DNA from: Chloroflexota bacterium
GTDB taxonomy: Bacteria > Chloroflexota > Anaerolineae > Anaerolineales > Anaerolineaceae
DNA length: 64,000 nucleotides
Assembly: GCA_021779955.1 (NCBI GenBank)
Contig: JAJXZS010000055.1
Coordinates: 1-64,000 of the forward strand
Direction: 5' to 3'
Made by a program: the position numbers and the translations under genes. Shown piece by piece: positions 3,387-19,890 of this stretch. How positions within the stretch are numbered: position 1 is the stretch's first letter; each line of letters begins with the position of its first letter. The notes under the pieces are model-generated. The model was given only the letters and a program-made list of their open reading frames with translations, was not told where the DNA came from and made no database searches.

Positions 3387-4277
3387 TCAAGCGACCGGTT
3401 TTGTCTCTTCTTCGTACATGGATTTGAAGGCTGTAATCGCCACTTCCAACATCTCATCGGTAGGCTCGTTTGTGGTCAATCGCTGCATTGCCATGTTTGG
3501 TTTTGCCAGCATTCGGAAGAATCCTTTGTCGAGATGATTTGCCGTAAAACGCATATACTCGTATGCGACCATCACGATGAGCGGCAACAGCAGCACCCTG
3601 GTTGCGAGACGCCAAAACCAGGAGAGCGGACCGAGCAGTGCAAAGACGATGATCGAAAAAACGACGACGATCAGAACAAAGCCGGTTCCACAGCGGGGGT
3701 GATGAAGAGAGAATGGCCTGACCGATTCAGGGGTCAATTCAGCGCCGGCCTCGAAGGCATTGATCGTTTTATGTTCTGCACCGTGATAAGAGAAGACCCG
3801 CTTGATATCCGGCATCCTGCCGACCGCCCAGATATATACAACAACCAGGATCAGGCGGATCAGCCCTTCACCCAGGTTGCTGACAAAATCTGAAAGATGC
3901 AAGGGGGTCTGTAGCAACTGCATCAGGGCAGCCGGAGCGAGGAAGAACAAACCGATTGCGATAGCAAAGGAGAACAGAAGGGTTCCAAACATTGCAGGAC
4001 CTTCGATCTTCTCGTCTTCGCCGCTCTGTGTGTTTGCTGAGATCGTCAGAAATTTCGTTCCGAGTCCGAGAGAATCCCAAAGGATAACGAGCCCTCGCAA
4101 GAAGGGAATTTTGGCAAGGCGGGTCTTGTAGATACCTTTCAATTCCTCTTTCTGAACAACAATCTCTCCGCCAGGCGCACGCATGGCAGCAGCGACATAG
4201 CGGGATCCCCGCATCAATACACCCTCGATCAACGCCTGCCCGCCATAGGCAGGCAGTTTCAGTTTGTCAGTTGGCAT
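3387..4277 (-). CDS. DUF1385 (YqhQ-like) membrane protein
   Basis: A 296-residue protein with the DUF1385 hallmarks: YGGQALIEGVLMRG near the start, the central YHGAEHKTINAFE motif, and HPRCGTGF. Hydrophobic segments lie at about 98-120, 135-152, 200-222 and 228-245. The conserved HGAEHK and HPRCGT histidines and cysteine suggest a metal site, but the family has no established biochemical role. B. subtilis YqhQ is the best-known relative. It is the second gene of the operon, nine bases after the M20 peptidase stop. Confidence 0.88.
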   Translation of the reverse strand: MPTDKLKLPAYGGQALIEGVLMRGSRYVAAAMRAPGGEIVVQKEELKGIYKTRLAKIPFLRGLVILWDSLGLGTKFLTISANTQSGEDEKIEGPAMFGTLLFSFAIAIGLFFLAPAALMQLLQTPLHLSDFVSNLGEGLIRLILVVVYIWAVGRMPDIKRVFSYHGAEHKTINAFEAGAELTPESVRPFSLHHPRCGTGFVLIVVVFSIIVFALLGPLSWFWRLATRVLLLPLIVMVAYEYMRFTANHLDKGFFRMLAKPNMAMQRLTTNEPTDEMLEVAITAFKSMYEEETKPVA

Positions 4278-4285
4278 ATGTAAGG

Positions 4286-5659
4286 TTATTTGCTCGCATT
4301 GTAGAAGAAATGAACAAGTGCTTCCACTCCCTTGAACCAGGTTGGGAGATTCAGCTTTTCGTTCGGCGAATGGATATTATCATCGGGCAAGCCAAAGCCG
4401 GTAAGGACGGAGTCAATACCAAGGATTCTTTGCATGCTTGATACAACGGGGACGCTGCCGCCTTCGCGCTTATAAGTCGGTTTGGTGCCCCAGACAGCCT
4501 CGAGCGCAGCGACCAGGGCTTTGGTTTCAGGTGTGTTGATATCCGAGATGCTTGGGCTACCGCCGCTGAGCTTTTCCAAAGTCCAGGTGACCGTGTTTGG
4601 GGCATGTTTTTGCAGGTACTCGATCAACTGCTTGTGTACATCGTCAGGAGATTGATCCGGCACAAGGCGGGTGGAAATCTTTGCCATGGCCCATGCCGGG
4701 ATGACCGTCTTTGCGCCCGCACCTGTGAAACCAGAAAGCAAGCCGCAAATATCCAGCGTCGGACGTCCGCCAACCCGCTCGACCGGTGTATATCCCTTTT
4801 CGCCCCAAGCTACCGGGGCGCCTGTTTGTTCCTGATAATAAGCATCGTCCATATGCAGGCGGGCCAGTTCAGTTCGTTCCTGTTCAGTCAAAGGAACGAC
4901 TTTGTCGTAAAAGCCTGGGAGCTGCACAACGCCGTCACCATCACGCATACCCGAGATCAAATCTGCCAGCACCTGGGCCGGATTCTGAACAACGCCGCCA
5001 TACACACCGGAGTGCAGGTCGTGGCTTGGGCCAAACACTTTGAGTTCGAAATAAGCCATGCCTCTCAGACCGTACACAATAGTTGGCATATCCGGCGCGA
5101 TCATCCCTGTATCGGCATTGAGTGCAAACGACGCCGAGAGAAGGTCCTTGTGAGCTTTGAGGAAATCTTCGAAGTGAAGGGAGCCGATTTCCTCCTCGCC
5201 TTCGATGATGAACTTGAGATTGAGCGGGAATTTATCAGTGTGCATGATCGATTCAATGGCCGAGACGATCGCCCAGACCTGTCCCTTCATGTCTGAAGCG
5301 CCACGGCCATACAGATTGTCGCCTTCGCGGACCGGTTGGAACGGCTCATGATGCCACAAATCAAGGGGGTCAACCGGTTGAACATCGTAATGGCCATAGA
5401 TCAACACAGTCGGTTGATTGTCTCCTGCATGCATGTAATCGCCATACACGATTGGATGGCGTGCAGTGGGAAAGACTTCAACATGTTCGATGCCAAGCGA
5501 TTTTAGCTTGACAGCAAGGAAATCTGCTGCATGATTGATATCTTGGGTATTCTCAGGCAAGGTCGAAATGGAAGGGATTTTTATGAATTCGATCAACTGT
5601 GCCAGGTATTCCTGTTGATGTTCGTGCAGATAATCGAGTGCTTTAGTGGACTGTGCCAT
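4286..5659 (-). CDS. M20-family dipeptidase (metallopeptidase)
   Basis: A 457-residue zinc peptidase of the M20/M25/M40 family, the dipeptidase-like branch. Metal-site motifs are in order: YGHYDVQP (His and Asp), GRGASDMKG (bridging Asp), EGEEEIGS (catalytic Glu pair) and NADTG. The insert dimerisation domain is near 200-320 with DLHSGVYGG, and the last histidine is in DDNIHSPNE. Cytoplasmic and without a signal peptide, it likely cleaves dipeptides or related amides; the substrate is not determined. It is the first gene of the minus-strand operon, with a good GAGG site just before ATG 5659. It is transcribed divergently from the ssnA-like gene. Confidence 0.92.
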   Translation of the reverse strand: MAQSTKALDYLHEHQQEYLAQLIEFIKIPSISTLPENTQDINHAADFLAVKLKSLGIEHVEVFPTARHPIVYGDYMHAGDNQPTVLIYGHYDVQPVDPLDLWHHEPFQPVREGDNLYGRGASDMKGQVWAIVSAIESIMHTDKFPLNLKFIIEGEEEIGSLHFEDFLKAHKDLLSASFALNADTGMIAPDMPTIVYGLRGMAYFELKVFGPSHDLHSGVYGGVVQNPAQVLADLISGMRDGDGVVQLPGFYDKVVPLTEQERTELARLHMDDAYYQEQTGAPVAWGEKGYTPVERVGGRPTLDICGLLSGFTGAGAKTVIPAWAMAKISTRLVPDQSPDDVHKQLIEYLQKHAPNTVTWTLEKLSGGSPSISDINTPETKALVAALEAVWGTKPTYKREGGSVPVVSSMQRILGIDSVLTGFGLPDDNIHSPNEKLNLPTWFKGVEALVHFFYNASK

Positions 5660-5817: not shown

Positions 5818-7167
5818 ATGTTAATCAAAAATGCCACAATCATCACCTGGACCAAACCCAATCAAATTTTGAGCGATTATGCCGTTCTGATCCAGGGGCA
5901 AAAAATCGCAAGACTTGCTCCCCAAATCCAACTTGAAGCTGAATATCCTCACGAACCTGTGCTGGACGCGCACGGACAACTGTTGATGCCCGGCCTTATC
6001 TGCGCTCACACACACTTCTACGGTGCATTTTCACGCGGGCTTGCGATTCCGAATCCCGCGCCTTCGCAATTCTCTGAGATCCTCGAGAAACTATGGTGGC
6101 CGCTCGACCAATCGCTCGACCTGGATGATGTTAGAGTGAGCTCTGAAGTCTGCATGATCGATGCCATCAAACACGGCAACACACTACTTTTCGATCACCA
6201 TGCTTCGCCAAATGCCATCGATGGTTCACTTGACGCGATCCGGGACGCTTTTGCCGAGACCGGTCTGCGGGGCGTGGAGTGCTATGAAGTAACCGACCGC
6301 GGTGGCGTGATCAAGGCTGATGCGGGTATCGCGGAAAACGTGCGTATGATCCACGAGGTGAAGGACGGCCAAAATCTGCAAGGACGGTTAGCAGCCACCT
6401 TCGGCCTGCATGCCGGGTTGACCCTTTCGGATGAGACTCTCGACAAGTGCCGCGTGGCAGCAGACGGATTATCCGGTTTCCATATCCACGTGGCCGAGCA
6501 TCAGATCGATGAGTTCAACAGCCTTGAGAAGTATGGATTGAGGGTCATTGATCGTCTGAAGGAGTTCGATATCCTGGGAGAGAATACCATCGTCGCACAC
6601 GGCGTCCACCTGGACATGCGAGAAGCCGAAATCCTTGCCGAAACCGGTACCTGGCTCTCGCAACAACCCCGTTCCAATATGAATAACGCCGTTGGGCTGG
6701 CAGATGTCGAATCCATGCTGCGTTTGGGCATCAAAGTTTGTATGGGGAATGATGGATTTTCGAATGCGATGTGGGATGAATGGCGGACGTGTTACCTGGC
6801 CCATAAACTGATCCATCGCGACCCGCGAAGGATGAATGGCGGGTCTGTCATCGAAATGGGCGTTTACAGCAATGCATTGCTGGCGCAGCGCTTCTTCCCA
6901 AATACAACAGGGCTGGGCACCATCCAACAGGATGCGCCTGCCGATCTCATTCTCGTGGATTACGAACCGATTACGGAGATGACGCCTGGCAACCTGCCGT
7001 GGCAGATCCTCTTTGGGTTCCGCGATTCGATGGTGACGATGACGATGGTGGATGGGGCCGTGCTGATGCGGGATCGCCAACTGACGACCATTGATGAACA
7101 CAAGGTCATCTTCGAAGCCCGAAAACGTTCAAAGGACGTGTGGGAACGATATCAAAAAATGTTCTAA
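5818..7167 (+). CDS. ssnA: SsnA-like amidohydrolase (cytosine/guanine deaminase superfamily)
   Basis: A 449-residue TIM-barrel amidohydrolase that closely resembles SsnA, with FYGAFSRGLAIP, ILEKLWWPLD and FDHHASPNAIDGSLDAI as in that family. Metal ligands are visible: AHTHFYGA (HxH), HVAEHQ, AHGVHL and GNDGFS (Asp). The family catalyses hydrolytic deamination or dechlorination of heterocycles. SsnA itself has no proven substrate but is found beside selenium-dependent molybdenum hydroxylases and xdh genes, as here. It is the first gene of the operon, directly behind a strong promoter. The substrate is likely an N-heterocycle or purine-like compound, by inference only. Confidence 0.85.
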   Translation: MLIKNATIITWTKPNQILSDYAVLIQGQKIARLAPQIQLEAEYPHEPVLDAHGQLLMPGLICAHTHFYGAFSRGLAIPNPAPSQFSEILEKLWWPLDQSLDLDDVRVSSEVCMIDAIKHGNTLLFDHHASPNAIDGSLDAIRDAFAETGLRGVECYEVTDRGGVIKADAGIAENVRMIHEVKDGQNLQGRLAATFGLHAGLTLSDETLDKCRVAADGLSGFHIHVAEHQIDEFNSLEKYGLRVIDRLKEFDILGENTIVAHGVHLDMREAEILAETGTWLSQQPRSNMNNAVGLADVESMLRLGIKVCMGNDGFSNAMWDEWRTCYLAHKLIHRDPRRMNGGSVIEMGVYSNALLAQRFFPNTTGLGTIQQDAPADLILVDYEPITEMTPGNLPWQILFGFRDSMVTMTMVDGAVLMRDRQLTTIDEHKVIFEARKRSKDVWERYQKMF

Positions 7168-7184
7168 ATCTCTTGAGGAGCAAC

Positions 7185-7862
7185 ATGGCAGACATCGAAA
7201 CTGAAGTCATCGCAATTCTGGGGGGCACTGGCAAGGAAGGCAAGGGCCTGGCTTATCAATGGACGAAATCCGGGCGGAAAGTAATTATCGGGTCGCGTAC
7301 GTTGGAAAAGGCACAGGCGGCAGCCGAAGAGGTCAATCAGAAACTGGCTTCGTTCACCGATCGGCGAGTTACCGGCACCGAAAACGGTCAAGCTGCCGCT
7401 GAGTGTTCGATTGCAGTATTGACGGTGCCTTTCAGCGCGCATGTGGCCATACTGGAAAGCCTCAAGGGAAAACTGAATGGGAAGTTATTGATCGATGTGA
7501 CCGTTCCGATCGTTCCGCCAAAGGTGACAAGGGTTCAGATCCCGGCTGCGGGCAGCGCTGCCATGGAAACGAAGTCCATCCTTGGGGATGGGCTCGAGAT
7601 TGCATCGGCGTTTCAGAATATTTCTTATGATAATTTATGGAATGACCGGAGCACAGAATGCGAAGTGCTTGTTTCCGGCACAAGCAAAGAGACACGTGCC
7701 AAAGTGATCGAGTTGGTGAAGGACGCGGGTCTCGAGGGATGGGATGCAGGCCCTCTAGAAAACTCCATCGTGGCTGAAGGGTTGACATCGATCTTGATTG
7801 GAATCAACAAGCAATTTGGCATAGATGGTTCCGGCATTAGAATCACAGGGGTCAAGCGGTAG
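7185..7862 (+). CDS. npdG: NADPH-dependent F420 reductase (F420H2:NADP oxidoreductase)
   Basis: A 225-residue Rossmann protein that moves hydride between coenzyme F420 and NADP. The N-terminal dinucleotide-binding loop reads ILGGTGKEGKGLAYQW, followed by GSRTLEKA for the NADP phosphate. The middle and end match the NpdG family (AVLTVPFSAH, LLIDVTVPIVPP, EGLTSILIGINKQF). I chose ATG 7185 because TGAGGAG stands four bases before it. An earlier in-frame GTG at 7140 would overlap ssnA. It sits directly before the F420 biosynthesis genes, so the organism both makes and uses F420. Confidence 0.9.
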   Translation: MADIETEVIAILGGTGKEGKGLAYQWTKSGRKVIIGSRTLEKAQAAAEEVNQKLASFTDRRVTGTENGQAAAECSIAVLTVPFSAHVAILESLKGKLNGKLLIDVTVPIVPPKVTRVQIPAAGSAAMETKSILGDGLEIASAFQNISYDNLWNDRSTECEVLVSGTSKETRAKVIELVKDAGLEGWDAGPLENSIVAEGLTSILIGINKQFGIDGSGIRITGVKR

Positions 7863-7876
7863 AGGGCAAACGATCG

Positions 7877-8644
7877 ATGACACTCACGTTTAGCCCTCTG
7901 CAAGCTTTCCCATTGGTAAAACCCGGCGATTCGCTGGCCGACTTGGTTCTCAAGAGTCTGAGAGAATCGAATATTGAATTACAGAACGAAGATATCCTGG
8001 TTGTTGCTCAAAAGATTGTCTCGAAATCAGAAGGCCGCCTGCGCAATTTAAACGACGTCGTCCCTTCGCAAGAAGCAATCGAACTGGCAGCCGAAACCGG
8101 CAAAGACCCCCGCTTCGTCGAACTGGTTTTGCAGGAGAGCGTGTCTGTTCTGCGCAAGCGGGAGAATACAATCATCGTGGAGCAAAAAAACGGGTTCGTT
8201 TGCGCCAATGCCGGAATCGACCATTCCAATGTGCGCGGTGAATGGGGCTTTGAAGATGACTGGGTGCTGCTTCTGCCGGAAAACGCTGACCGTTCTGCGG
8301 ATAACCTTCGCAAGGAACTTGAAGATAAAACCAAGCTCAAGTTGGGAATACTGATCATCGACAGCCATGGACGGGCATGGCGAAATGGCACCGTTGGAAC
8401 AACGATCGGTCTCTCAGGACTTCCGGGATTGGTCGATCTGCGGGGAACGAAGGATTTGTTCGGTTACAGCTTACGCATTACCCAGGTCGCGGCTGCCGAT
8501 GAACTTGCTGCCGGCGCATCCTTGCTAATGGGTCAGGCGGCTGAACGAACGCCGGTCATCCACGTCCGCGGGTTTCCGTATCCGCTGCGTGAAAGCAGCT
8601 TGAGCGAATTGATCAGGCCAAAGGATTTGGACCTTTTTCGATAG
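7877..8644 (+). CDS. cofE: Coenzyme F420-0:L-glutamate ligase CofE
   Basis: A 255-residue stand-alone CofE that adds gamma-linked glutamates to F420-0 using GTP. Family motifs include DILVVAQKIVSKSEGR (about 38-53), the metal-binding CANAGIDHSNV (about 109-119) and ILIIDSHGRAWRNGTVGTTIG (about 153-175). It ends like archaeal-type CofE. It lacks the C-terminal nitroreductase domain of actinobacterial FbiB, so any reduction of dehydro-F420-0 would need a separate enzyme not seen here. It lies 14 bases after npdG. Confidence 0.93.
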   Translation: MTLTFSPLQAFPLVKPGDSLADLVLKSLRESNIELQNEDILVVAQKIVSKSEGRLRNLNDVVPSQEAIELAAETGKDPRFVELVLQESVSVLRKRENTIIVEQKNGFVCANAGIDHSNVRGEWGFEDDWVLLLPENADRSADNLRKELEDKTKLKLGILIIDSHGRAWRNGTVGTTIGLSGLPGLVDLRGTKDLFGYSLRITQVAAADELAAGASLLMGQAAERTPVIHVRGFPYPLRESSLSELIRPKDLDLFR

Positions 8645-8652
8645 GCGGGGCC

Positions 8653-9198
8653 ATGCAAGCAATCGCAACTCTTCTGAATCCGTCTGTACATCAGAAAACA
8701 CTTGAGCCATGGCAAGCGCTTGAGAAGACGTGCGGATTGTCAGGAATCAAAGTCCCAAACGACCCTCATCTTTCCTGGTTTGTGGCCGAGAAATTCGACG
8801 AATCGGCAGTGAAGCAGGAATTTTCCGTATTTGCTCGCGAATTGGAGGAGTTCGAAATCCATACCAATGGCATTGGGTTGTTCACGGGTGAGAGGCCGAT
8901 TCTTTATATACCGGTGGTCAAGACCAAGCAGCTGCTCGATGTGCACGCCAAAATCTGGAATTCCCTATCGAGCTATGGAGAAAATCTAACAGACTTCTAT
9001 AGTCCAGAAAATTGGATTCCGCATATTACGATTACATCAGACGATTCCTCTTTGATCGACCTGGGCTGCATCTTGAGTGCGCTGATGCATGTCGACCTCA
9101 AAATGAAGATACCGGTCGATAATCTGGCGCTGATCTTTTCAGAGGAATCCTCAGCCGGAATCAACTTTGTGCAGAGCTTCAATAGAGGTGAATTATGA
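8653..9198 (+). CDS. 2H phosphoesterase-like protein (2'-5' RNA ligase family) inside the F420 operon
   Basis: A 181-residue protein with two H-x-[ST] motifs, PHLSWF at about 37-42 and PHITIT at about 123-128. These form the paired catalytic histidines of the 2H/LigT superfamily, which cleaves 2',3'- or 1',2'-cyclic phosphodiesters. The rest of the sequence is not familiar to me. It starts eight bases after cofE and overlaps cofD by four bases (ATGA), so it is made with the F420 enzymes. I know of no 2H phosphoesterase in the described F420 pathway. A role in F420 phosphodiester turnover or repair is only inference. Confidence 0.75.
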   Translation: MQAIATLLNPSVHQKTLEPWQALEKTCGLSGIKVPNDPHLSWFVAEKFDESAVKQEFSVFARELEEFEIHTNGIGLFTGERPILYIPVVKTKQLLDVHAKIWNSLSSYGENLTDFYSPENWIPHITITSDDSSLIDLGCILSALMHVDLKMKIPVDNLALIFSEESSAGINFVQSFNRGEL

Positions 9199-10130
9199 CG
9201 AAAGTGGCCGCGCTGGCTGGAGGAGTTGGGGGTGCAAAACTTGCTTATGGCTTATCGAAGATCCTCCCTCCAGACGATTTGACTGTAATCGTCAACACCG
9301 GCGATGATTTTGAACATTTCGGCTTGAAGATTTGTCCCGACCTGGATACGATCTGCTATACACTGGCAGGTCTGGCAAATCCTGTGACCGGATGGGGACG
9401 GGAGAACGATACCTGGAATTGCCTCAGCACTTTGAAGCAATTCGATGCCCCAGCCTGGTTCAACATAGGCGATGCCGACCTGGCGTTGCATCTCGAAAGA
9501 ACCCGCCTGGATCAAGAAGGACATCCTCTTTCGGAGATCACTCAGCAATTGGCGCGTAAAATGGGCATCCAGCACACTGTTCTGCCCATGACCGATGAGG
9601 AAGTGACGACGATCATTTCTACCAAGGAATATGGCGATCTCGATTTCCAGGAATATTTTGTCAAATACCAGTTTGCTCCAACCATGACCGGCATCAAACT
9701 TGATGGCATCGACTGGGCCAGAGCTCCCCAGAAGGTAATCGATAATTTGAATGGGTGCGATATCGTAATTATCTGCCCATCGAATCCTTGGGTGAGTATC
9801 TTCCCGATTCTCTCGATCCAGGATATCAAACAGATCCTGGCGCACAAGCCCGTTGTTGCCGTTTCTCCGATTGTTGGCGGGAATGCCTTGAAAGGCCCGG
9901 CTGCAAAGATGTATCGGGAAATGGGGATCACGCCCTCTGCTCTCGAAGTGGCCCGGCAATACAAACCGTATATCAAAGGCTTCGTTCTCGATGTAATTGA
10001 CGAAGAGCAAGGTGATATTTTAAGCCAGTGGGGTATAATTTCAATGGTTACAAATACGATCATGGCAAACGACGAGGCAAAGGTAAGGTTAGCGCAGGAA
10101 GTGTTGGAATTCTCTTTAAAATTAGTTTAG
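9195..10130 (+). CDS. cofD: 2-phospho-L-lactate / phosphoenolpyruvate transferase CofD
   Basis: A 311-residue enzyme that joins the activated phospholactyl- or phosphoenolpyruvyl-guanosine moiety to Fo, giving F420-0 or its dehydro form. The start LAGGVGGAKLAYGL is the nucleotide-binding loop. NTGDDFEHFG with PDLDT carries the metal and phosphate site, and GWGRENDTW, FNIGDADLALHL, CPSNPWVSIFPIL and VSPIVGGNALKGPA are all family-typical. Length is normal. It is coupled by an ATGA overlap to the 2H phosphoesterase and followed by cofC. Confidence 0.95.
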   Translation: MTKVAALAGGVGGAKLAYGLSKILPPDDLTVIVNTGDDFEHFGLKICPDLDTICYTLAGLANPVTGWGRENDTWNCLSTLKQFDAPAWFNIGDADLALHLERTRLDQEGHPLSEITQQLARKMGIQHTVLPMTDEEVTTIISTKEYGDLDFQEYFVKYQFAPTMTGIKLDGIDWARAPQKVIDNLNGCDIVIICPSNPWVSIFPILSIQDIKQILAHKPVVAVSPIVGGNALKGPAAKMYREMGITPSALEVARQYKPYIKGFVLDVIDEEQGDILSQWGIISMVTNTIMANDEAKVRLAQEVLEFSLKLV

Positions 10131-10142
10131 AAGGTAATTTTT

Positions 10143-10778
10143 ATGACACTTTGGGCTATCGTACCCGTAAAACCTCTCAGAAGAGGGAAATCTCGTCTCT
10201 CCAAGGTCTTAAGTGAAGATGAGCGAACCTCTCTAAACAAGACCTTGCTCGTTAATACCCTGAAGACTTTACGAAAAGTAGAAGAAATCGATACCACCCT
10301 GGTCGTATCGCGCGATCCCTCTGCTCTGGCGCTTGCCAGGGATTACGGAGCCAGGACGGTGCTCGAAGACGGCAGTCCTGAATTGAATACGGCATTACGC
10401 AGAGCAGCCTCAGTTGCCCAAGCCTACCAGGCGCACGAGATCATCGTCCTGCCGGCAGATCTTCCACTGCTGACCTGGGAGCACATGAAGGAGTTCCTAG
10501 CTCACAGCGGCCAACCGCCTGAGGTGATCATTGCCCCGGACCGCCGTCATGATGGGACAAATGCGCTGTACATCAATCCACCAGGGTTGATCCCGTTCTG
10601 CTACGGATCCGGTTCTTTTAATGCCCATGTCGACTCAGCCAGGAAAGCCGGTTCGCGCATCGAAATAATAGACGATCCTATCTTCAGCCTCGATCTCGAT
10701 TTACCTGAAGACCTTGATTATCTGAAACAGCTAAAATCGGAAGACGCCATCATCACCAAATCTGTATCGGAGGGTTAG
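10143..10778 (+). CDS. cofC: 2-phospho-L-lactate / PEP guanylyltransferase CofC (FbiD)
   Basis: A 211-residue GTP-dependent nucleotidyltransferase that makes the guanylated precursor used by CofD and releases pyrophosphate. It opens with [14 protein letters not shown], the GTP-binding start of the family. [11 protein letters not shown] (Asp pair for metal) is central, and [10 protein letters not shown] with the C-terminal [10 protein letters not shown] completes the pattern. Whether it prefers 2-phospholactate or phosphoenolpyruvate cannot be told by eye. Its stop is one base before the next gene. Confidence 0.92.
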
Positions 10779-10779
10779 G

Positions 10780-11778
10780 ATGCCAGAACGAGTTGCTTTA
10801 TATCTACAAGATGCGCATAATCTGCGCGACGGATTGGATTATGTTCGTTATGCAGAAGCAAGAGGATTCGAAGCCGTTTGGCAGGCGGAAAGTCGGCTGG
10901 TACGAGATGCAATTGTGCCCATGGCGGCTTATGCTGCTGTGACAGACCACCTGAAGGTCGGCTCGGGCGTGATCAATAACTGGACGCGCAATATCGGTCT
11001 GCTTGCCTCCACCTTTCTGACTCTCGATGATTTGGCTCCGAACCGGATTATTTGCGGTATTGGCGCCTGGTGGGATCCTTTGGCAAGAAATGTCGGCATC
11101 GACCGCAAGAAACCTTTAACCGCGATGAAAGAGACCGTGCTTATTCTGCGTCGCTTGCTGCACATGGAGAGAGTTACTTTCGACGGCGAATTTATCCATG
11201 TCAACGGTATTCAACTGGATGTGGTACATGGCAACACAGAACCTCGCAATGTTCCCATCTACATTGGCGCCACAGGGGATCAGATGATGGAGATGACCGG
11301 TGAGATCGCCGACGGCGTGGTGATGAATTATTGCGTTCCTCCGGAATACAATCTCAAAGCGATCGAGCTTTTGAAAAATGGCACAACGCGAGCAGGACGC
11401 AAGTTTGACGATCTTGACCGGCCACAGCTCATCGTGTGTTCAGTCAACGAAGACCACGACGCCGCCATCGATACGACACGAGAACTGCTGACTCAATATC
11501 TCGCGCAACAGCCACATATCGCCAAAGCTTCAGGCGTTGCACCTGAAGTGGTGCAGCAGATTCAGTCGATTCTGGGTTGGCCTGCCACGCATGAGCAAAT
11601 TGCCAAAGCCAAATACCTTGTCCCCGAGGACTTGATCATCAGGATCACGGCATCCGGCACGCCTGATGAAGCTCGCGCCAAAGTAAAAGAATACATCAAG
11701 AATGGCTGCACTTGCCCGATTCTCTACCCCGTAGGGGGGGACGTGAAACTCCTTATCGATACCTTTGCGCAGAAGTGA
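10780..11778 (+). CDS. LLM-class F420-dependent oxidoreductase (Mer-like)
   Basis: A 332-residue luciferase-like TIM-barrel protein. The [19 protein letters not shown] opening, the [13 protein letters not shown] strand and the [12 protein letters not shown] segment match F420-dependent members such as methylene-tetrahydromethanopterin reductase. Its position directly after cofC supports F420 rather than FMN as cofactor. The substrate is unknown. As the third F420 function in a row (reductase, biosynthesis, user), it suggests that the deazaflavin made here serves a pathway encoded by this operon. Confidence 0.85.
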
Positions 11779-11779
11779 T

Positions 11780-12253
11780 ATGAGCAGACTCGCAAATTCC
11801 AGGTATTGCTTCGTATGCGGCATCGAAAACGCCAACGGTCTGAAATTGATTCTCGAAAGTGATGCACCTGGTCGCGTATCGGGGAAGATTGTAATACCAA
11901 GCCGGTTTGATGGATGGCCGGGTATTGTTCATGGCGGTGTTCTTTCGGCAATTCTTGATGAATCGGCAGGACGTTCGATCGAGGCCGCCCCATTCCCAAA
12001 CGAGACTTTTCTTACCGGAACCCTGAATGTGCGATTCAGACGACCTGCGTACAGTGAGACCGCGCTTTTTGTGGAAGCTGAACTGGTCAGGCGCAAGGGG
12101 CGCGTGGCCGTTGCCACAAGCAAAATCATGGACGAAGACGGGCAGGTGCTTGCCGAGGCAGAAGGTACATTCGTCAAGATCAAGGAAGAAAATGCCATGA
12201 ACCATACCGGCAAATCAGACGAATGGATAATGGTACCAGGCGAGGAGAATTAA
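11780..12253 (+). CDS. PaaI-family hotdog thioesterase
   Basis: A 157-residue single hotdog-fold protein. It begins MSRLANSRYCFVCG and holds the active-site segment WPGIVHGGVLSAILDE. The HGG loop and following helix are the PaaI/YbgC-like signature. It likely hydrolyses acyl-CoA or aryl-CoA thioesters. ATG 11780 is one base after the LLM stop; an in-frame TTG at 11765 is less likely. The CxxC near the start (CFVCG) recurs in a subset of the family. Its presence hints that the pathway passes through CoA esters, or that it detoxifies them. Confidence 0.82.
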   Translation: MSRLANSRYCFVCGIENANGLKLILESDAPGRVSGKIVIPSRFDGWPGIVHGGVLSAILDESAGRSIEAAPFPNETFLTGTLNVRFRRPAYSETALFVEAELVRRKGRVAVATSKIMDEDGQVLAEAEGTFVKIKEENAMNHTGKSDEWIMVPGEEN

Positions 12254-12254
12254 G

Positions 12255-13013
12255 ATGATCATCGAATATCATCGTCCCAAGGACGAATCGCAAGCGCTCG
12301 CTTTGTTGAACCGCAAGATTCCTATCACCATCCCGCTAGGCGGCGGAACTGTTGTCAGCAAGACCAGCCAAGAAGTCGCCGTCGTAGACCTGCAATTCCT
12401 GGATTTGAACTATATTCGCGAAGAGAACAAGACTATCGCGATCGGCAGCATGACGACACTTGAAGAGATGCTCAGTTATTTTGGCAAAGAATCTGCCATC
12501 GGCCAGGCAATTGTCATCGATGCAGGTAAAAATATCCGATGCATGGCGACACTTGGCGGATCGGTGGTATCGAACGGCGGAAGGTCTGCGCTACTCACCG
12601 TCCTGAAAGCCCTGGGCATAGAAATCGTCTGGAAACCAGGCGATAAAGTCACAGATATCGACACCTGGCTTGCGAGCAAGGATGCAGGCAGATTTGGCGA
12701 CTTCATTTCTGAGATTCGAATGCCAAAGGAAGTTCAAGTTGCCTTCGAATCAGTGGGCCGCAGCCCGCTGGATCTACCGATCATCTGCTGCGCTGTGACG
12801 AGACAGCCCAATGGCAGTTTGCGATTAGCCCTGGGGGGATTTGGAGAAGCTCCGATTCTTGGGTATGAAGGTAATGCATGGGGCGATGTAGCCAAATCGG
12901 TGGGCGGCGCGTTGAATGCAGCCGGAGATGAATGGGCTTCGGCTGAATATCGTGTCGAAGCAGGCACAATACTGGCAAAGCGATTGATCGAAGCGCTGGC
13001 GGAAGGTAAGTGA
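12255..13013 (+). CDS. FAD-binding subunit of a xanthine dehydrogenase-family molybdenum hydroxylase (first system)
   Basis: A 252-residue CoxM/XdhB-like subunit. FAD contacts are TIPLGGGTVVSK (about 28-39) and NIRCMATLGGSVVSNGG (about 92-108). It passes electrons from the iron-sulfur clusters to an acceptor. It is shorter than many CoxM proteins, and the first glycine loop (GGGT) and second loop (RCMATLGGS) differ from the more canonical copy at 18.1 kb, so the FAD site may be modified. It ends three bases before the fused Fe-S/molybdenum subunit and is its likely partner. Confidence 0.88.
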   Translation: MIIEYHRPKDESQALALLNRKIPITIPLGGGTVVSKTSQEVAVVDLQFLDLNYIREENKTIAIGSMTTLEEMLSYFGKESAIGQAIVIDAGKNIRCMATLGGSVVSNGGRSALLTVLKALGIEIVWKPGDKVTDIDTWLASKDAGRFGDFISEIRMPKEVQVAFESVGRSPLDLPIICCAVTRQPNGSLRLALGGFGEAPILGYEGNAWGDVAKSVGGALNAAGDEWASAEYRVEAGTILAKRLIEALAEGK

Positions 13014-13016
13014 GGA

Positions 13017-15944
13017 ATGGCCACCATGAATATCAATCTTGACATCAACAACTGCATGATCCCATTCGAGATACAGCCAGCTGTTACATTGCTAAGCGTA
13101 TTGCGCGGGGCCGGATATTTTGGAGCCAAATTTGGCGGATGCAAGAAGGGTGAATGTGGGGCCTGCACCGTTTTGTTGGATGGGAAACCGGTAAATTCCT
13201 GCTCGATGCTTGCTGCGCAGGCTGAGGGTCACAAAATCCAAACGATTGAGGGAATTGGCCAACATCCCGACCAGGGATGGAAGAAAACCGAGGGTCTGCA
13301 TCCGCTGCAGCAAGCATTCATTGAATCCGGCGCGATCCAGTGCGGCTACTGCACACCAGCCATGGTGCTGAGTACCAAATCACTGATCGATAAGTCACCG
13401 GAACCTTCTGAAGAGGATATTCGCGATGCTCTTTCGGGAATTCTCTGCCGATGCACAGGTTATCAGAAGCCTGTAGAAGCGGTCAGGGCAGCCGCAGCGT
13501 TGATGAACGGTTCGGTGACATTGTCCGAGTTTAGCGACGACATCAAGGCGAACTCCATGCCACAAATGGATCTTGCGCCGGAGGCGGAGGGATTCAAGAG
13601 CGTCGGAAAGCCTGATATCAAGGTTGACGCGATGAAGCTTGTACAAGGCAAGGCTGCTTTCACTGCGGATATCGACATCAAAGATCTGCTGGTCGCCAGG
13701 GTGCTGCACAGCCCGGTAGCCCACGCTCGGATCAAGCGAATCGATGTCGAAAAAGCACGTGCTTTGCCAGGTGTACACGCTGTCTTGACCTACAAGGATA
13801 TTCCGAGGGTTGTTTTCACCACGGCGGGCCAATCGGATCCCATCCCAGGACCGCTGGATGCATTCAGTTTGGACAACAAAGTCCGATTTGTGGGGGACAG
13901 GGTTGCATTCGTGGCAGCCGAAACAGCCGAGATTGCTGCCAAAGCACTCGGGTTGATTGATGTGGAATACGAAGAGCTTCCGATTTTGCTGAATTCGGAA
14001 GATGCCATGAAGCCTGGCGCTCCGATCTTGCATGACGAACCGGAATACCAGAATTTTGCCGATTCCGATCCTTCGAAGAATCTGGCTGCTGAAATCCGCA
14101 TCGATATTGGAAATGTCGAAAACGGTTTTAAAGAGGCCGACCGTATATTCGAAGCGGACTACGAGGTCCCCAAGGTCCAACAAGCACATATCGAACCTCA
14201 TGTCACAGTCACCTACTGGGATTCTGACGACCGCCTTGTTATTCGCACGAGCACACAGGTACCTTTCCATGCTCGCAGGCAACTTGCTCCGGTATTGGGA
14301 TTGCCCATCAAACGAATCAGGGTGATAAAACCCAGAATCGGCGGTGGATTTGGCGGAAAGCAGGAGATCCTCATAGAGGACGTCGCCGCTCATCTGACCA
14401 TCGCCACAGGAAAGCCGGTCGTCTTCGGGTACTCACGGGAAGAGGAATTCATCGCTGCGCGCTCACGGCATCCCATGAAGATTCACATGAAGACAGGCGT
14501 CAAGATGGACGGGACGGTCACAGCGAACGAAATGCATGTGCTCACCGATACAGGCGCTTACGGCTGCCACGCATTGACCGTCACAGGCAATACAGGGCAA
14601 AAGGCTATGGCATTGTATGTTGGTGATGGCAAGTATCGAAAATCACCCAATATTCGCTTCTACGCGGATATTGTCTATACCAATACGCCGCCTGCAGGCG
14701 CATACCGCGGATACGGTGTGCCCCAGGGGTTCTGGCCCGTGGAACGCCAGATGGAAACGATCGCGCGCGAATTGAATCTTGACCCAATCGAGTTCCGGTT
14801 GAAGAACGCGCTGCGCGCCGGCGAACTGCAGCCTTTCAGTACATCGTGGAGCGAGGGACGCGAACCAAAGCCTGAAATTGTCCATACGGTCGGACTGGAA
14901 CGGTGCGTAAAATTGGGGAAGCTTGCCATTGATTGGGAAAAGAAGTTTTCAAAATCCGAATGGCACACAGTTGCCGGAAAACCGCATTTGCGCAAAGGTA
15001 TTGGCGTTGCGATGGTCATGCAAGGCACTGCAATCCCATACCTGGACATGGGCGCGGCGAGCATCAAGATCAACGAAGACGGCTCTTTCAACCTGTTGAT
15101 CGGCGCCACCGACCTGGGTACAGGCTCAGATACTGTTCTTGCCCAGATGGCATCTGAAGTCCTCGGCGTTCCCACAGAAGATATCCTGGTTTACTCGTCA
15201 GATACCGATATGACGCCTTTCGACAAAGGTGCGTACGCATCGAGCACCACGTACATATCAGGGACAGCAGTCACGAACGCAGCCATGCAAGCCGCTGAAC
15301 GCATTAAAGTACGCGCAGCGTTCATGCTCTCTAAGGACGAACGTAAAGTGACGACTGAGGAAATCGTTTTGCGCGAGCGCAAAGCATTTGCTGCAGATGG
15401 GCGGTCCGTCACAATGGCAGAAGTGGCTTGCGAATCGCTGCACCATGCAAATCAGGAGCAAATCATGGGCACGGCATCCTACGTATCGCCAGTGGCTCCT
15501 CCGCCGTTTGCTGCTCAATTTGCCGAAGTTACCGTTGATATTGAGACTGGTAAAGTCATCGTTGACAAGCTTGTAATGGCGGTGGATTCCGGAGTCATCG
15601 TCAACCCATTGACCGCCTCAGGGCAGATCGAGGGCGGCATGGTTCAAGCGCTTGGATACGCAGTAAGTGAGGAAATGGTCTACGACGCGAAGGGCAGGGC
15701 GCGCGAAAGAGACCTGGTGGACTATCACATCTTCAGGGCAGACGAAATGCCTGAGATGAAGACCATCTTTGTCGAAACCTACGAGCCATCGCATCCGTTC
15801 GGAGCCAAAGCTGTTGCTGAGATCCCCATGGATGGTGTGGCGCCGGCTGTGGGAAATGCAATTCAGGATGCGTGTGGGGCCATGCTATACAGGAATCCGG
15901 CCACTCCAGAGCGTGTTCTGGAGGCAATCAAGAGAAGGAAATAA
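13017..15944 (+). CDS. Molybdenum hydroxylase with fused [2Fe-2S] and Mo-binding domains (first system)
   Basis: A 975-residue fusion. Residues about 5-160 are a CoxS/XdhA-type iron-sulfur protein. The plant-type cluster is CKKGECGACTVLLDG with a distal Cys, and the second cluster lies in QCGYCTPAM and LCRCTGYQ. Residues about 195-970 are the molybdopterin subunit, with GGGFGGKQE, PPAGAYRGYGVPQ (active-site Arg loop), ATDLGTGSDTVLAQM (Gln loop) and AKAVAEIP, which supplies the catalytic Glu where xanthine dehydrogenase has GEPP. There is no CO dehydrogenase AYxCSFR loop. It hydroxylates a heterocycle or aldehyde of unknown identity. It abuts the pyrophosphatase gene (TAA then ATG). Confidence 0.92.
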   Translation: MATMNINLDINNCMIPFEIQPAVTLLSVLRGAGYFGAKFGGCKKGECGACTVLLDGKPVNSCSMLAAQAEGHKIQTIEGIGQHPDQGWKKTEGLHPLQQAFIESGAIQCGYCTPAMVLSTKSLIDKSPEPSEEDIRDALSGILCRCTGYQKPVEAVRAAAALMNGSVTLSEFSDDIKANSMPQMDLAPEAEGFKSVGKPDIKVDAMKLVQGKAAFTADIDIKDLLVARVLHSPVAHARIKRIDVEKARALPGVHAVLTYKDIPRVVFTTAGQSDPIPGPLDAFSLDNKVRFVGDRVAFVAAETAEIAAKALGLIDVEYEELPILLNSEDAMKPGAPILHDEPEYQNFADSDPSKNLAAEIRIDIGNVENGFKEADRIFEADYEVPKVQQAHIEPHVTVTYWDSDDRLVIRTSTQVPFHARRQLAPVLGLPIKRIRVIKPRIGGGFGGKQEILIEDVAAHLTIATGKPVVFGYSREEEFIAARSRHPMKIHMKTGVKMDGTVTANEMHVLTDTGAYGCHALTVTGNTGQKAMALYVGDGKYRKSPNIRFYADIVYTNTPPAGAYRGYGVPQGFWPVERQMETIARELNLDPIEFRLKNALRAGELQPFSTSWSEGREPKPEIVHTVGLERCVKLGKLAIDWEKKFSKSEWHTVAGKPHLRKGIGVAMVMQGTAIPYLDMGAASIKINEDGSFNLLIGATDLGTGSDTVLAQMASEVLGVPTEDILVYSSDTDMTPFDKGAYASSTTYISGTAVTNAAMQAAERIKVRAAFMLSKDERKVTTEEIVLRERKAFAADGRSVTMAEVACESLHHANQEQIMGTASYVSPVAPPPFAAQFAEVTVDIETGKVIVDKLVMAVDSGVIVNPLTASGQIEGGMVQALGYAVSEEMVYDAKGRARERDLVDYHIFRADEMPEMKTIFVETYEPSHPFGAKAVAEIPMDGVAPAVGNAIQDACGAMLYRNPATPERVLEAIKRRK

Positions 15945-18094: not shown

Positions 18095-19507
18095 ATGTGG
18101 AAAGAATATTACAACGCATCCTCCTTGCCTGAAGTTTTGGATCTTCTTGACCAACCCGGGCGCTCCGTTCGCCTGATTGCCGGCGGCACGGATATCCTGC
18201 TCGATCTCGAGAAGCAGGAGCATGAACTTGATCTACTGATCGACGTCTCAAGAATCGAAGGGCTGGATCGGATCAGGGTTGATGCCGATGGAATCGTGCA
18301 CATTGGACCGTTGGTAACTCACAACCATTGCGTAGAATCCGAACTACTGCGCAGGTATGCGCTTCCACTCGTCATGGCAAGCTACATGGTGGGATCTCCG
18401 CAAATCCGAAATCGGGGGACAATCGCAGGCAATGTGATCACTGCTTCGCCGGCGAATGACACCATTTCACCCCTCATGGCTCTCGATGCGTCGCTAACCT
18501 TGCTTTCCAAGCGAGGCGAACGCAAAGTGCTGCTAAGCGAATTCTACAGGGGAGTGCGCAAGACCGTCATCGCCCCTGATGAAGTGTTGACCGATATTTC
18601 TTTTGTCGGAATGAAGGAGACACAAAAGGGAGTGTATAAGAAGTATGCTCTCAGGCGTACGCAAGCGATCTCGCTTGTCAATGCTGCCATCGTTTTGACG
18701 TTAGAAGACAAGAAAATCACTAAAGCCGCAATCACGCTCGGTTCTGTGGCGCCAATAATTATCCATGCTCCAAAAGCCGAACAATTTCTTGTTGGAAAAT
18801 CTCTCTCAGAAGCAGTCATTGAAGAGGCCTCAAGACTTACAGCTTCCGAAATCGCGCCAATCAGTGATATTCGCAGTTCGGCAGGTTACCGTGCAGGCAT
18901 GGCAGAAACGATGGTCAAACGCGGATTGAGTGAAATCAACGCCGGAACGAGCGGTACCGATCTCCCGAAAAATCCAGTATTATTGTGGGGCAAAAAGCAA
19001 GGAACCTCGAATCCCTGGCTCAAAACGGGCAGAGCCTATACAGGGTCTGAATCGATTCAGGCCAGGGTAAATGGAAAACCACTCAGCCTGATAGGCGGCT
19101 ATCAAAAGACCCTCTTGCGTTGGATTCGCGAAGAGGCACTGCTCATCGGAACAAAAGAAGGCTGCGCTGAGGGGGAGTGTGGAGCCTGCACAGTCTTTCT
19201 GGATGGCAAGGCGGTGATGAGCTGCCTTGTAGCTGCCCCCCGTGTGGATCAGGCGGAACTTATCACTATTGAAGGGTTGAGTCAGGACGGGCAATTATCA
19301 ACAGTTCAGCAAGCTTTTGTCGAAGAAGGTGCTGTACAATGTGGATATTGCACTCCGGGTTTTGTGATGTCAGCTGAGAAGCTGCTCGAGGAGAAGAGTT
19401 CTCCTGACCTCGACGACATCAAGATAGCCATCAGCGGCAACCTTTGCAGGTGTACAGGCTATTACAAAATCGTGCGGGCCATAGAAAAGGCAGCATCCAG
19501 CCAATAG
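18095..19507 (+). CDS. Fused FAD-binding and [2Fe-2S] subunit of a second molybdenum hydroxylase
   Basis: A 470-residue fusion in FAD-then-iron-sulfur order. Residues about 1-285 are a CoxM/XdhB FAD domain with IAGGTDILLDLE and QIRNRGTIAGNVITASPAND. A linker of some 35 residues follows. From about 320 to the end is a [2Fe-2S] domain with CAEGECGACTVFLDG, QCGYCTPGF and LCRCTGYY. Xanthine dehydrogenase has the opposite order (Fe-S, FAD, Mo) and CO dehydrogenase has separate subunits, so this layout is less common. It differs clearly from the 12.3-15.9 kb system, so the operon encodes two distinct enzymes. Confidence 0.92.
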   Translation: MWKEYYNASSLPEVLDLLDQPGRSVRLIAGGTDILLDLEKQEHELDLLIDVSRIEGLDRIRVDADGIVHIGPLVTHNHCVESELLRRYALPLVMASYMVGSPQIRNRGTIAGNVITASPANDTISPLMALDASLTLLSKRGERKVLLSEFYRGVRKTVIAPDEVLTDISFVGMKETQKGVYKKYALRRTQAISLVNAAIVLTLEDKKITKAAITLGSVAPIIIHAPKAEQFLVGKSLSEAVIEEASRLTASEIAPISDIRSSAGYRAGMAETMVKRGLSEINAGTSGTDLPKNPVLLWGKKQGTSNPWLKTGRAYTGSESIQARVNGKPLSLIGGYQKTLLRWIREEALLIGTKEGCAEGECGACTVFLDGKAVMSCLVAAPRVDQAELITIEGLSQDGQLSTVQQAFVEEGAVQCGYCTPGFVMSAEKLLEEKSSPDLDDIKIAISGNLCRCTGYYKIVRAIEKAASSQ

Positions 19508-19515
19508 AGGGAACT

Positions 19516-19830
19516 ATGACAAAGTATACGGACCACTACAAACAAGATACACGGTCGAAAGCTGAGCGTTTGGGACCTCATCCGATCTGGCGAGGTATCG
19601 GTCTGGTTTTTCTAATCGTGCTTCCAGTGATGTCGTTTTTGATCGTCAGCTACTTTATCGAGAACCCATCACTTGTGCCGTGGTTGGAGATTCCAAAGGA
19701 AATTGTGTTTCAGAACCTTTGGGATCCATTCATCGCAGCCAAGCTGATCGGTACGATCCTCGTGGCGTTCGTATTATTCATAGCAATTTCATTTTTTACT
19801 TTCCTGATCAATAGCATCGCCGGCCGGTAA
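19516..19830 (+). CDS. Small two-helix membrane protein inside the second hydroxylase gene set
   Basis: A 104-residue protein that I do not recognise. A polar N-terminus (YTDHYKQDTRSKAERLG) is followed by two strongly hydrophobic segments at about 25-48 and 75-100, so it is an inner-membrane protein with about 25 residues between the helices. ATG 19516 follows GAGGGAAC. It sits between the FAD/Fe-S subunit and the molybdenum subunit of the same enzyme, so it is likely co-translated with them. It could anchor the hydroxylase or connect it to a membrane acceptor; that is inference from position only. Confidence 0.75.
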   Translation: MTKYTDHYKQDTRSKAERLGPHPIWRGIGLVFLIVLPVMSFLIVSYFIENPSLVPWLEIPKEIVFQNLWDPFIAAKLIGTILVAFVLFIAISFFTFLINSIAGR

Positions 19831-19890
19831 TCTGGCGGGAGTATGCGTGATCGATCAAGCTTTATTGCATAAATGACAAGGGACAGCGAT

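Follow-up and report, generated by a model that had tools for sequence, protein, structure and literature searches.

The window, the whole 64,000-nucleotide stretch of DNA that was analysed, contains a 2H-phosphoesterase gene set among genes for coenzyme F420 maturation and for reductive uric-acid degradation. The gene and its neighbours were assigned as follows.

4286..5659, minus strand: M20 peptidase (PF01546), divergently oriented; in the neighbourhoods of relatives often found beside ssnA
5818..7167, plus strand: ssnA, amidohydrolase of reductive uric-acid degradation (NF005540, 482.8 bits, cut-off 444)
7140..7862, plus strand: npdG, NADPH-dependent F420 reductase (TIGR01915, 182.7 bits, cut-off 149.8)
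7877..8644, plus strand: cofE, F420-0:L-glutamate ligase (TIGR01916, 266.8 bits, cut-off 180.65)
8653..9198, plus strand: 2H phosphoesterase (2'-5' RNA ligase superfamily), 181 aa, ATG start, HLS and HIT motifs
9195..10130, plus strand: cofD, 2-phospho-L-lactate transferase (TIGR01819, 300.5 bits, cut-off 257.45); closest solved sequence, LPPG:FO 2-phospho-L-lactate transferase 3c3d
10143..10778, plus strand: cofC, guanylyltransferase (TIGR03552, 167 bits, cut-off 105)
10780..11778, plus strand: LLM, luciferase-like, Mer-like oxidoreductase and candidate F420-dependent yanthine reductase (PF00296; Mer profile NF002619 at 172.6 bits, below its cut-off of 276; nearest solved sequences are Mer)
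11765..12253, plus strand: 4HBT thioesterase-fold protein (PF03061)
12255..13013, plus strand: FAD_binding_5 subunit, YgfM-like (PF00941)
13017..15944, plus strand: XDH/XdhD-like molybdenum hydroxylase (PF02738, PF20256, PF01315, PF01799)

The stop codon of cofE (TAG, 8642-8644) is separated by 8 bp from the ATG of the 2H gene, whose own stop codon (TGA, 9196-9198) overlaps the ATG of cofD (9195-9197). The four-base overlap with cofD described in the original prediction is thus present, as ATGA at 9195-9198. A second molybdenum-hydroxylase set, comprising flavin/Fe-S and MoCo subunits, lies at 18095-22095, downstream of XdhC.

Relatives of the window's cofE in named public contigs were, judged by title, mostly from Anaerolineaceae, Anaerolineales or Chloroflexi, and included Ornatilinea apprima, Anaerolinea, Longilinea, Pelolinea and Brevefilum. 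Where the gene order was complete it read M20 (divergent), ssnA, npdG, cofE, (2H), (cofD), (cofC), LLM, (4HBT), (FAD_binding_5), (XDH), followed by more molybdenum-hydroxylase genes. Neighbouring genes in these loci were named by phmmer matches to the window's proteins and their open reading frames were called by a simple longest-ORF scheme, which misplaced genes or starts in some loci (e.g., L089, L114).

Translation of the open reading frame at 8653-9198 gave the motifs HLSW (His39, Ser41) and HITI (His124, Thr126). The protein matched PF13563 (2_5_RNA_ligase2) at 43.7 bits (cut-off 27) in a Pfam scan, and the same profile was found in all 37 members of an alignment of operon-borne 2H proteins (A1) at E ≤ 0.01. 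A match of 31.2 bits to the NF010223 equivalog (PRK13679), which we take to be a YjcG-type profile, remained below the cut-off of 129. These two were the only matches in the Pfam and NCBIfam profiles, and no homology to CofC, CofD, CofE, CofG/H or FbiB was detected. A phmmer search of the PDB with the window's 2H protein gave no match at E ≤ 1, and single-protein scans of genome-contig and plasmid collections gave no relative. A profile built from A1 retrieved the PDB entries 1vdx, 2d4g and 2fyh at E-values of 2e-6 to 3e-6, together with three weaker entries. An AlphaFold2 model based on 37 operon 2H sequences (pLDDT 91, pTM 0.86) had 2H proteins of the LigT/CPDase fold as its best PDB entries in Foldseek and VIA-align comparisons, with a Z-score of 16.6 and an rmsd of 2.9 over 170 residues for 1vdx, and Z-scores of 16.2 for CPDase (5h7e) and 15.5 for LigT (5ldi).

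Residues H39, W42, G75, F77, W121, P123 and H124 were invariant in A1. Both histidines were kept in 57 of 57 operon 2H copies, in all of which positions 41 and 126 were occupied by serine or threonine. The window's open reading frame is a genuine 2H phosphoesterase with intact active-site motifs and, by sequence and predicted fold, a normal member of the superfamily; profile, motifs and fold all agree with the earlier identification of a 2H protein with two HxS/T motifs. What is unusual about it is its F420-bound gene setting.

Operon 2H proteins are acidic (median net charge -7 and pI 5.3 over 43 rows; -11 and 4.9 for the window's protein), and A1 contains a single conserved basic residue, K90, and no conserved arginine. 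Given that the groove of LigT is described as strongly positive (PMC5283653), these properties may be taken as only a hint against an RNA-binding groove of the LigT type. The 2H paralogues that are unlinked to F420 genes were equally acidic (median net charge -9 over 25 rows), and W121, P123 and H124 also occurred in 39 of 39 unlinked paralogues. No F420-specific residue was found when operon and unlinked copies were compared.

The original prediction described the gene as locked between cofE and cofD. Its position relative to cofE was indeed tightly conserved, with intergenic distances of -17 to 14 bp in 50 of the 56 2H genes that had a same-strand cofE in the locus. The outliers were L087 (48 bp), L114 (-104 bp, long ORF call), L137 (76 bp, short ORF), L261 (-58 bp), L267 (2031 bp, with a gene in between) and L268 (second tandem copy). 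The link to cofD was loose: in 34 pairs no more than 600 bp apart, the distance ranged from -35 to 490 bp and exceeded 30 bp in 10, with other genes inserted in some. A same-strand 2H match within 521 bp upstream of cofD occurred in 34 of the 98 family genomes with a cofD match (93 over cut-off plus 5 with incomplete or broken matches; another 7, matching only weakly at about 1e-4, were dropped) and in 12 of 32 genera, a recurrence which shows that the arrangement of 2H and cofD is not due to chance. The next operon gene after 2H was cofC in eight genomes (G008, G010, G011, G013, G052, G068, G069, G123) and LLM in three (G033, G056, G102). The tight link of the 2H gene is therefore to cofE, and the overlap with cofD in the window is a local detail. 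Because the gap to cofD varied and 2H stayed behind cofE when cofD had moved or was absent, a tie of 2H to CofD chemistry was rejected, and with it the suggested connection to nucleotidyl or phospholactyl transfer. No fused cofE-2H gene was noticed in the loci that were read. In L239 and L268, which may be one contig, two tandem 2H genes with ORFs of 179 and 195 aa lie behind cofE.

Among 147 genomes of the window's family, some 2H match was found in 101, a cofE match in 111 and a match to the cofD profile in 105 (93 over cut-off). Operon-borne 2H genes occurred in 46 of these genomes, covering 19 of 40 genera: 34 upstream of cofD and 12 more identified by reading neighbourhoods. All but one had a cofE match (45); the exception, G064, carries its 2H gene at a contig end. 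The frequency among cofE genomes was therefore 45/111 in the family, and it was 3/11 in the window's own genus (G000, G127, G131), in which G135 carries only a weak 2H fragment interrupted by stops and the G128 contig breaks off after cofE. The order was sampled with 300 genomes, of which 263 had cofE and 81 a 2H match at E 1e-6; the cofE, 2H and CofH counts were taken as referring to the same set, as settings were identical. Outside the family, 18 genomes of this sample had a 2H match, which lay behind cofE in 12, in one case with a gene in between and in another on a contig that retains just the cofE end. In another of the 18, G165, the 2H gene lies at a contig start, before cofC. Expressed per cofE genome, the cofE-2H pair was found in 24/71 inside the family, 12/192 outside and 36/263 overall. 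The adjacency occurred in four families of the order (f1, f9, f12, f14), the 12 genomes just mentioned belonging to the three families other than that of the window. At the level of the phylum, 33 of 400 sampled genomes had a 2H match at E 1e-12, and none of 21 loci from outside the family had cof genes in the flanking regions of approximately 1.5 kb (three further matched genomes were left out). The choice of family loci was guided in part by their 2H gene, so that unbiased counts are available only at the whole-genome level.

These counts indicated that 2H is an optional gene, present in a minority of Anaerolineales F420 clusters. Absence from the F420 clusters of related genomes, which the original prediction named as refuting it, is thus seen in part: the gene recurs beside cofE in several families, with a low frequency in the window's genus and elsewhere in the order. 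As most F420 clusters of relatives lack the gene, it cannot represent a general step of F420 biosynthesis, and the proposal of a new accessory step does not hold in that general form.

Operon and unlinked copies formed mostly separate paralogue groups in sequence-based trees. A tree built from 80 2H proteins of the family (46 operon, 34 unlinked) required 3 changes of the unlinked label, as compared to 26.0 for shuffled labels, and placed the unlinked proteins in one clade of 24 rows (SH-aLRT 94), one clade of 9 and L124 alone. A wider tree of 115 rows (77 from the family and 38 from the order and phylum) required 7 changes; here, the operon copies of L277 and L271 fell among unlinked rows and the unlinked copies of L296 and L124 among operon rows. 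Both were quick trees with many weak forks, from which rows shorter than 115 aa (80-row tree) or family rows shorter than 150 aa (wider tree) had been left out. Mapped onto the cofE tree, presence of an operon 2H gene required 15 changes, indicating that it was gained or lost many times. Genomes G109, G102 and G027 hold both an operon and an unlinked copy; the two kinds occurred together in 3 of 84 cofE loci. A complementary distribution of the two, for which there were too few independent pairs, was set aside. Operon 2H proteins diverge rapidly: at 60-70% identity of cofE, their median identity was 0.30, as compared to 0.56 for cofD. The idea that they evolve faster than unlinked copies was rejected, since the median for the latter in the same cofE range was 0.28.

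The surroundings of unlinked 2H genes varied, and included genes for a TPR-SLT protein, an FHA and PP2C pair with a ThiS-like protein, ABC ATPases, DNA polymerase III delta, OsmC, an M23 peptidase and others. In L097, a small ThiS-like protein (4091-4387) directly precedes the unlinked 2H gene, and ORFs of the same cluster and size are similarly placed in L070 and L082. The 2H match in L301 (G621) lies inside an ORF of 623 aa, possibly a fusion with another domain.

In seven genomes, an operon 2H gene was found without any CofD match (G008, G010, G011, G013, G068, G069, G102). Operons with cofE, npdG and LLM in genomes without a true CofD were found in G008, G010, G011, G013, G068 and G069 (loci L132, L118, L114, L117, L119 and L121), in G139 and G140 (L176, L177) and in G102 (L098), and all of these except G102 also had cofC in the operon. 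CofC scored over cut-off in 7 of 7 CofD-less loci scanned. A PF01933 search of 13 CofD-less genomes yielded one protein each over cut-off, of approximately 450-500 aa and taken, from its size, for YvcK. In CofD-less genomes with an operon 2H gene, this was kept alongside ssnA and LLM. Within genus g4, the position behind cofE holds 2H in four species without a true CofD (G008, G010, G011, G013) and cofD in four species without a 2H match (G007, G009, G012, G014, three of which are 71-77% complete). A link between CofD loss and 2H gain, striking in this genus, was not significant (3 independent pairs on starred branches, median p 1), and the CofD-less genomes G035 and G145 had no 2H match.

The gene slot behind cofE was also occupied by other candidate helpers. 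In 71 named-contig loci, which include some loci of the window's family and from which 7 loci at contig ends and 2 without a recognised cofE had been left out, the stretch from cofE to the next F420 gene held a nitroreductase in 29 cases, 2H in 12, and a PNPOx protein alone in 1; 29 loci had none of these. The family set comprised 80 loci, chosen partly through 2H and with 4 loci at contig ends left out; here, the same stretch held 2H in 41, a nitroreductase in none and neither in 39. On the named contigs, none of the 12 2H loci had a nitroreductase; mutual exclusion of 2H and nitroreductase was nevertheless rejected, as the two coexist in L265, L267, L269, L271, L275 and L274. The stand-alone nitroreductase, in several loci accompanied by a PNPOx-like protein, is a candidate dehydro-F420-0 reductase. 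Separate nitroreductase genes (PF00881) lie between cofE and cofD in L190, L186, L189, L191, L206, L212, L192, L219, L228, L246, L265, L271, L274 and L275.

XdhD, YgfK and SsnA have been shown to carry out the reduction and ring opening of uric acid via yanthine, and an operon type has been predicted to degrade uric acid with F420, with a likewise predicted role for LLM (Li et al., 2025, PMC12507026). The window's operon fits this prediction and adds genes for F420 maturation. A YgfK-like protein with Pyr_redox_2 and Fe-S domains is encoded in the F420 operons of L209 (7071-9566), L226 (11867-14230) and L275 (from 12747). An ORF of equal size is present in each of L199 and L266. No cofE-2H locus free of uricolysis genes was found among the loci read, each of which had at least one of ssnA, LLM, XDH and a YgfK-like gene nearby; gene context can therefore not separate a role in F420 metabolism from one in purine metabolism. 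Locus L275 (G339) had been considered as a uricolysis-free cofE-2H-cofD-cofC locus and was rejected: its first 15 kb end inside the YgfK-like gene, and homologues of 4HBT, FAD_binding_5, XDH, DHH and XdhC follow beyond. Genes for ssnA, npdG and LLM were not found on its 52.5-kb contig. The uricolysis genes of L275 lowered the weight given to an F420-related role and raised that of a role in purine supply. That the 2H enzyme is made together with the F420 enzymes as an accessory is still a fair guess, in that close spacing (from which co-expression would follow), occurrence in several families and the mostly separate paralogue group speak for it, while the uric-acid genes leave room for a role outside F420.

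Genes for FO synthesis and for conversion of FO to F420 are stated to co-occur in the majority of organisms (PMC8498797), and Anaerolineales seem to be an exception. The window's genome (G000) is 100% complete, and profile searches gave no match to CofH or CofG at E 1e-3. At the same threshold, some CofH match was found in 37 of 147 family genomes, of which only G033 scored over cut-off; apart from this genome, the strongest match was partial (1.7e-13). The CofG profile matched in 17 of 61 genomes, a set that does not include G033, with none over cut-off. In the order sample, CofE was present in 263 of 300 genomes and CofH over cut-off in only 8; below-cut-off CofH matches of 4e-74 to 5e-100, which may be true or related proteins, occurred in four others. 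The single over-cut-off CofH of the family (G033:C4:88420-90662) lies beside a second, weaker match that is maybe CofG. In the same genome, the operon 2H gene is located between cofE and LLM, and cofD elsewhere. The F420 chromophore of Anaerolineales would then derive either from uptake of Fo or from an unrecognised synthase, or else be another chromophore. The puzzle is bigger than the 2H gene, since most Anaerolineales with cofE show no known gene for the Fo core. The available text of the F420 review contains no word beginning with salvag- or scaveng- (PMC8498797).

The 2H enzyme may assist the F420 maturation unit as a dispensable partner coupled to cofE. The reading that is preferred here, with a probability of roughly one in three, is that it acts as a small-molecule cyclic phosphodiesterase in repair or turnover of F420, perhaps on Fo-4',5'-cyclic phosphate, its substrate being presumably a small cyclic phosphodiester rather than RNA. 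Such a compound could arise by a chemically plausible attack of the ribityl 4'-OH of F420-0 on the adjacent 5'-phosphodiester. One catalytic histidine of the 2H enzyme would then activate water and the other would protonate the leaving ribityl oxygen, and ring opening would yield Fo monophosphate, to be dephosphorylated to Fo and re-used. Deazaflavin would thereby be saved in bacteria that mostly have no recognisable Fo synthase, a deficiency from which we infer that such a saving enzyme makes sense. In favour of this reading are the 2H fold, the two histidines kept in every operon copy, the tight spacing behind cofE in four families, the mostly separate paralogue group, the acidity of the operon proteins, the lack of CofH and CofG matches in the window's genome and the chemical precedent of cyclic FMN. 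Several observations count against this cyclic-phosphodiesterase reading: the inactivity of mammalian CNPase, a remote 2H enzyme, towards cyclic FMN (PMC12838640), the patchy distribution of the gene, the constant presence of uricolysis genes, the lack of an F420-specific residue, the equal acidity of the unlinked paralogues, the rapid divergence of the operon copies, the failure to notice a cofE-2H fusion and the occurrence of 2H in CofD-less genomes. The known route would not allow recycled Fo to be converted to F420 in the seven genomes that have an operon 2H gene and lack a true CofD.

A different substrate altogether, RNA 2',3'-cyclic phosphate or 2',3'-cyclic nucleotides, would make the protein an ordinary 2H enzyme placed behind cofE by operon history. 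This account, doubtful but to be taken seriously, would explain that annotated solved relatives act, by their titles, on RNA, cyclic nucleotides and ADP-ribose 1'',2''-cyclic phosphate, that unlinked paralogues from unrelated neighbourhoods carry the same motif set, and that the copy in the operon is optional and evolves rapidly. It fits less well with a tight coupling to cofE that recurs in four families, the mostly separate paralogue group, the three genomes that keep both kinds of copy (G109, G102, G027) and the acidic operon protein without conserved arginine. Were cyclic nucleotides the substrate, the enzyme might also feed purines to the operon's own uric-acid pathway, e.g., from 2',3'-cyclic purine nucleotides released by RNA decay. 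Both the uricolysis gene near every cofE-2H locus read and the retention of 2H with ssnA and LLM in CofD-less genomes point in this direction; we consider such a role unlikely, as the 2H gene lies directly behind cofE rather than beside ssnA or XDH, and most such operons in the order lack it (in the 71 named-contig loci, 29 had a nitroreductase instead and 29 neither).

Hydrolysis might instead concern the linear phosphodiester of F420, F420-0 or dehydro-F420-0, with transesterification via the 4'-OH releasing wrong or surplus forms, and Fo being recovered before or after CofE acts. The 2'-5' ligase/phosphodiesterase activity reported for LigT (PMC5283653) provides a precedent, and proof-reading beside cofE is conceivable, as FbiB adds glutamate to dehydro-F420-0 (PMC6450877) and none of the 80 family loci has a nitroreductase between cofE and the next F420 gene. 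Coexistence of 2H and nitroreductase in six loci shows that 2H is no stand-in for that reductase and, with 39 of the 80 family loci having neither gene, makes turnover of linear forms rather improbable. A replacement of CofD by 2H, which in CofD-less genomes would act on the CofC product and pass its phospholactate on to Fo, appears very improbable. The alternating slot of genus g4, the over-cut-off CofC of seven CofD-less loci and the 13 CofD-less genomes with only a YvcK-sized PF01933 protein would be accounted for; the side-by-side presence of 2H and cofD in 34 family genomes, the lack of association between CofD loss and 2H presence and the CofD-less genomes without 2H (G035, G145) argue against it. 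Action on a pyrophosphate is, moreover, not known to us for any 2H enzyme. Equally improbable is the idea that in Anaerolineales without Fo synthase, several genera of which also lack CofD, the F420 phosphodiester itself is formed or re-formed by the 2H enzyme coupled to cofE, either with salvaged Fo accepting an in-line transfer from the CofC product or with the opening of Fo-4',5'-cyclic phosphate running in reverse; if true, this would constitute a CofD-independent route to F420.

To our knowledge, no repair or recycling step has so far been attached to F420. The collection of papers that was searched contains none that joins coenzyme F420 with a 2H phosphoesterase, or F420 biosynthesis and cofD with an RNA ligase. 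If the 2H enzyme acts on a deazaflavin phosphoester, it would represent the first known F420 repair or recycling step, in organisms whose chromophore supply is puzzling. The 2H-containing operon also gives a clearer picture of the F420-dependent route of uric-acid degradation that has been predicted for Chloroflexota.

With the reductive uric-acid cluster XdhD-YgfK-SsnA (PMC12507026), the window shares ssnA, XDH, YgfM-like and M20 genes; F420 synthesis genes, a 2H gene and the missing Fo synthase are not mentioned in the available part of that account. FbiB of mycobacteria, as described in PMC6450877, is a CofE fused to a dehydro-F420-0-reducing nitroreductase and thereby resembles the present case in that an accessory enzyme is tied to CofE. 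In contrast to the reductase part of FbiB, the 2H enzyme is not a redox protein, is not fused to CofE and can coexist with a nitroreductase. A ribityl flavin that forms a 4',5'-cyclic phosphate is known from FMN cyclase and cyclic FMN metabolism, which offer a precedent for the proposed substrate: FAD yields 4',5'-cyclic FMN, which is reported to be stable to acid and base and to be hydrolysed by liver extract (PMC12838640). That precedent concerns FAD in animals, and in the part of the account available the responsible hydrolase was not identified, CNPase having failed. The closest structural counterparts are LigT/ThpR of E. coli (5ldi), PH0099 of Pyrococcus (1vdx), YjcG of Bacillus (2d4g) and the Deinococcus CPDase (5h7e), which share with the window's 2H protein the fold over nearly the whole chain (Z-scores of 15.3-16.6), the two HxS/T motifs and a length of approximately 180 aa. 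The window's protein, only 12-16% identical to them, differs from these enzymes in its acidity, in the lack of a conserved arginine and in being bound to a cofE operon.
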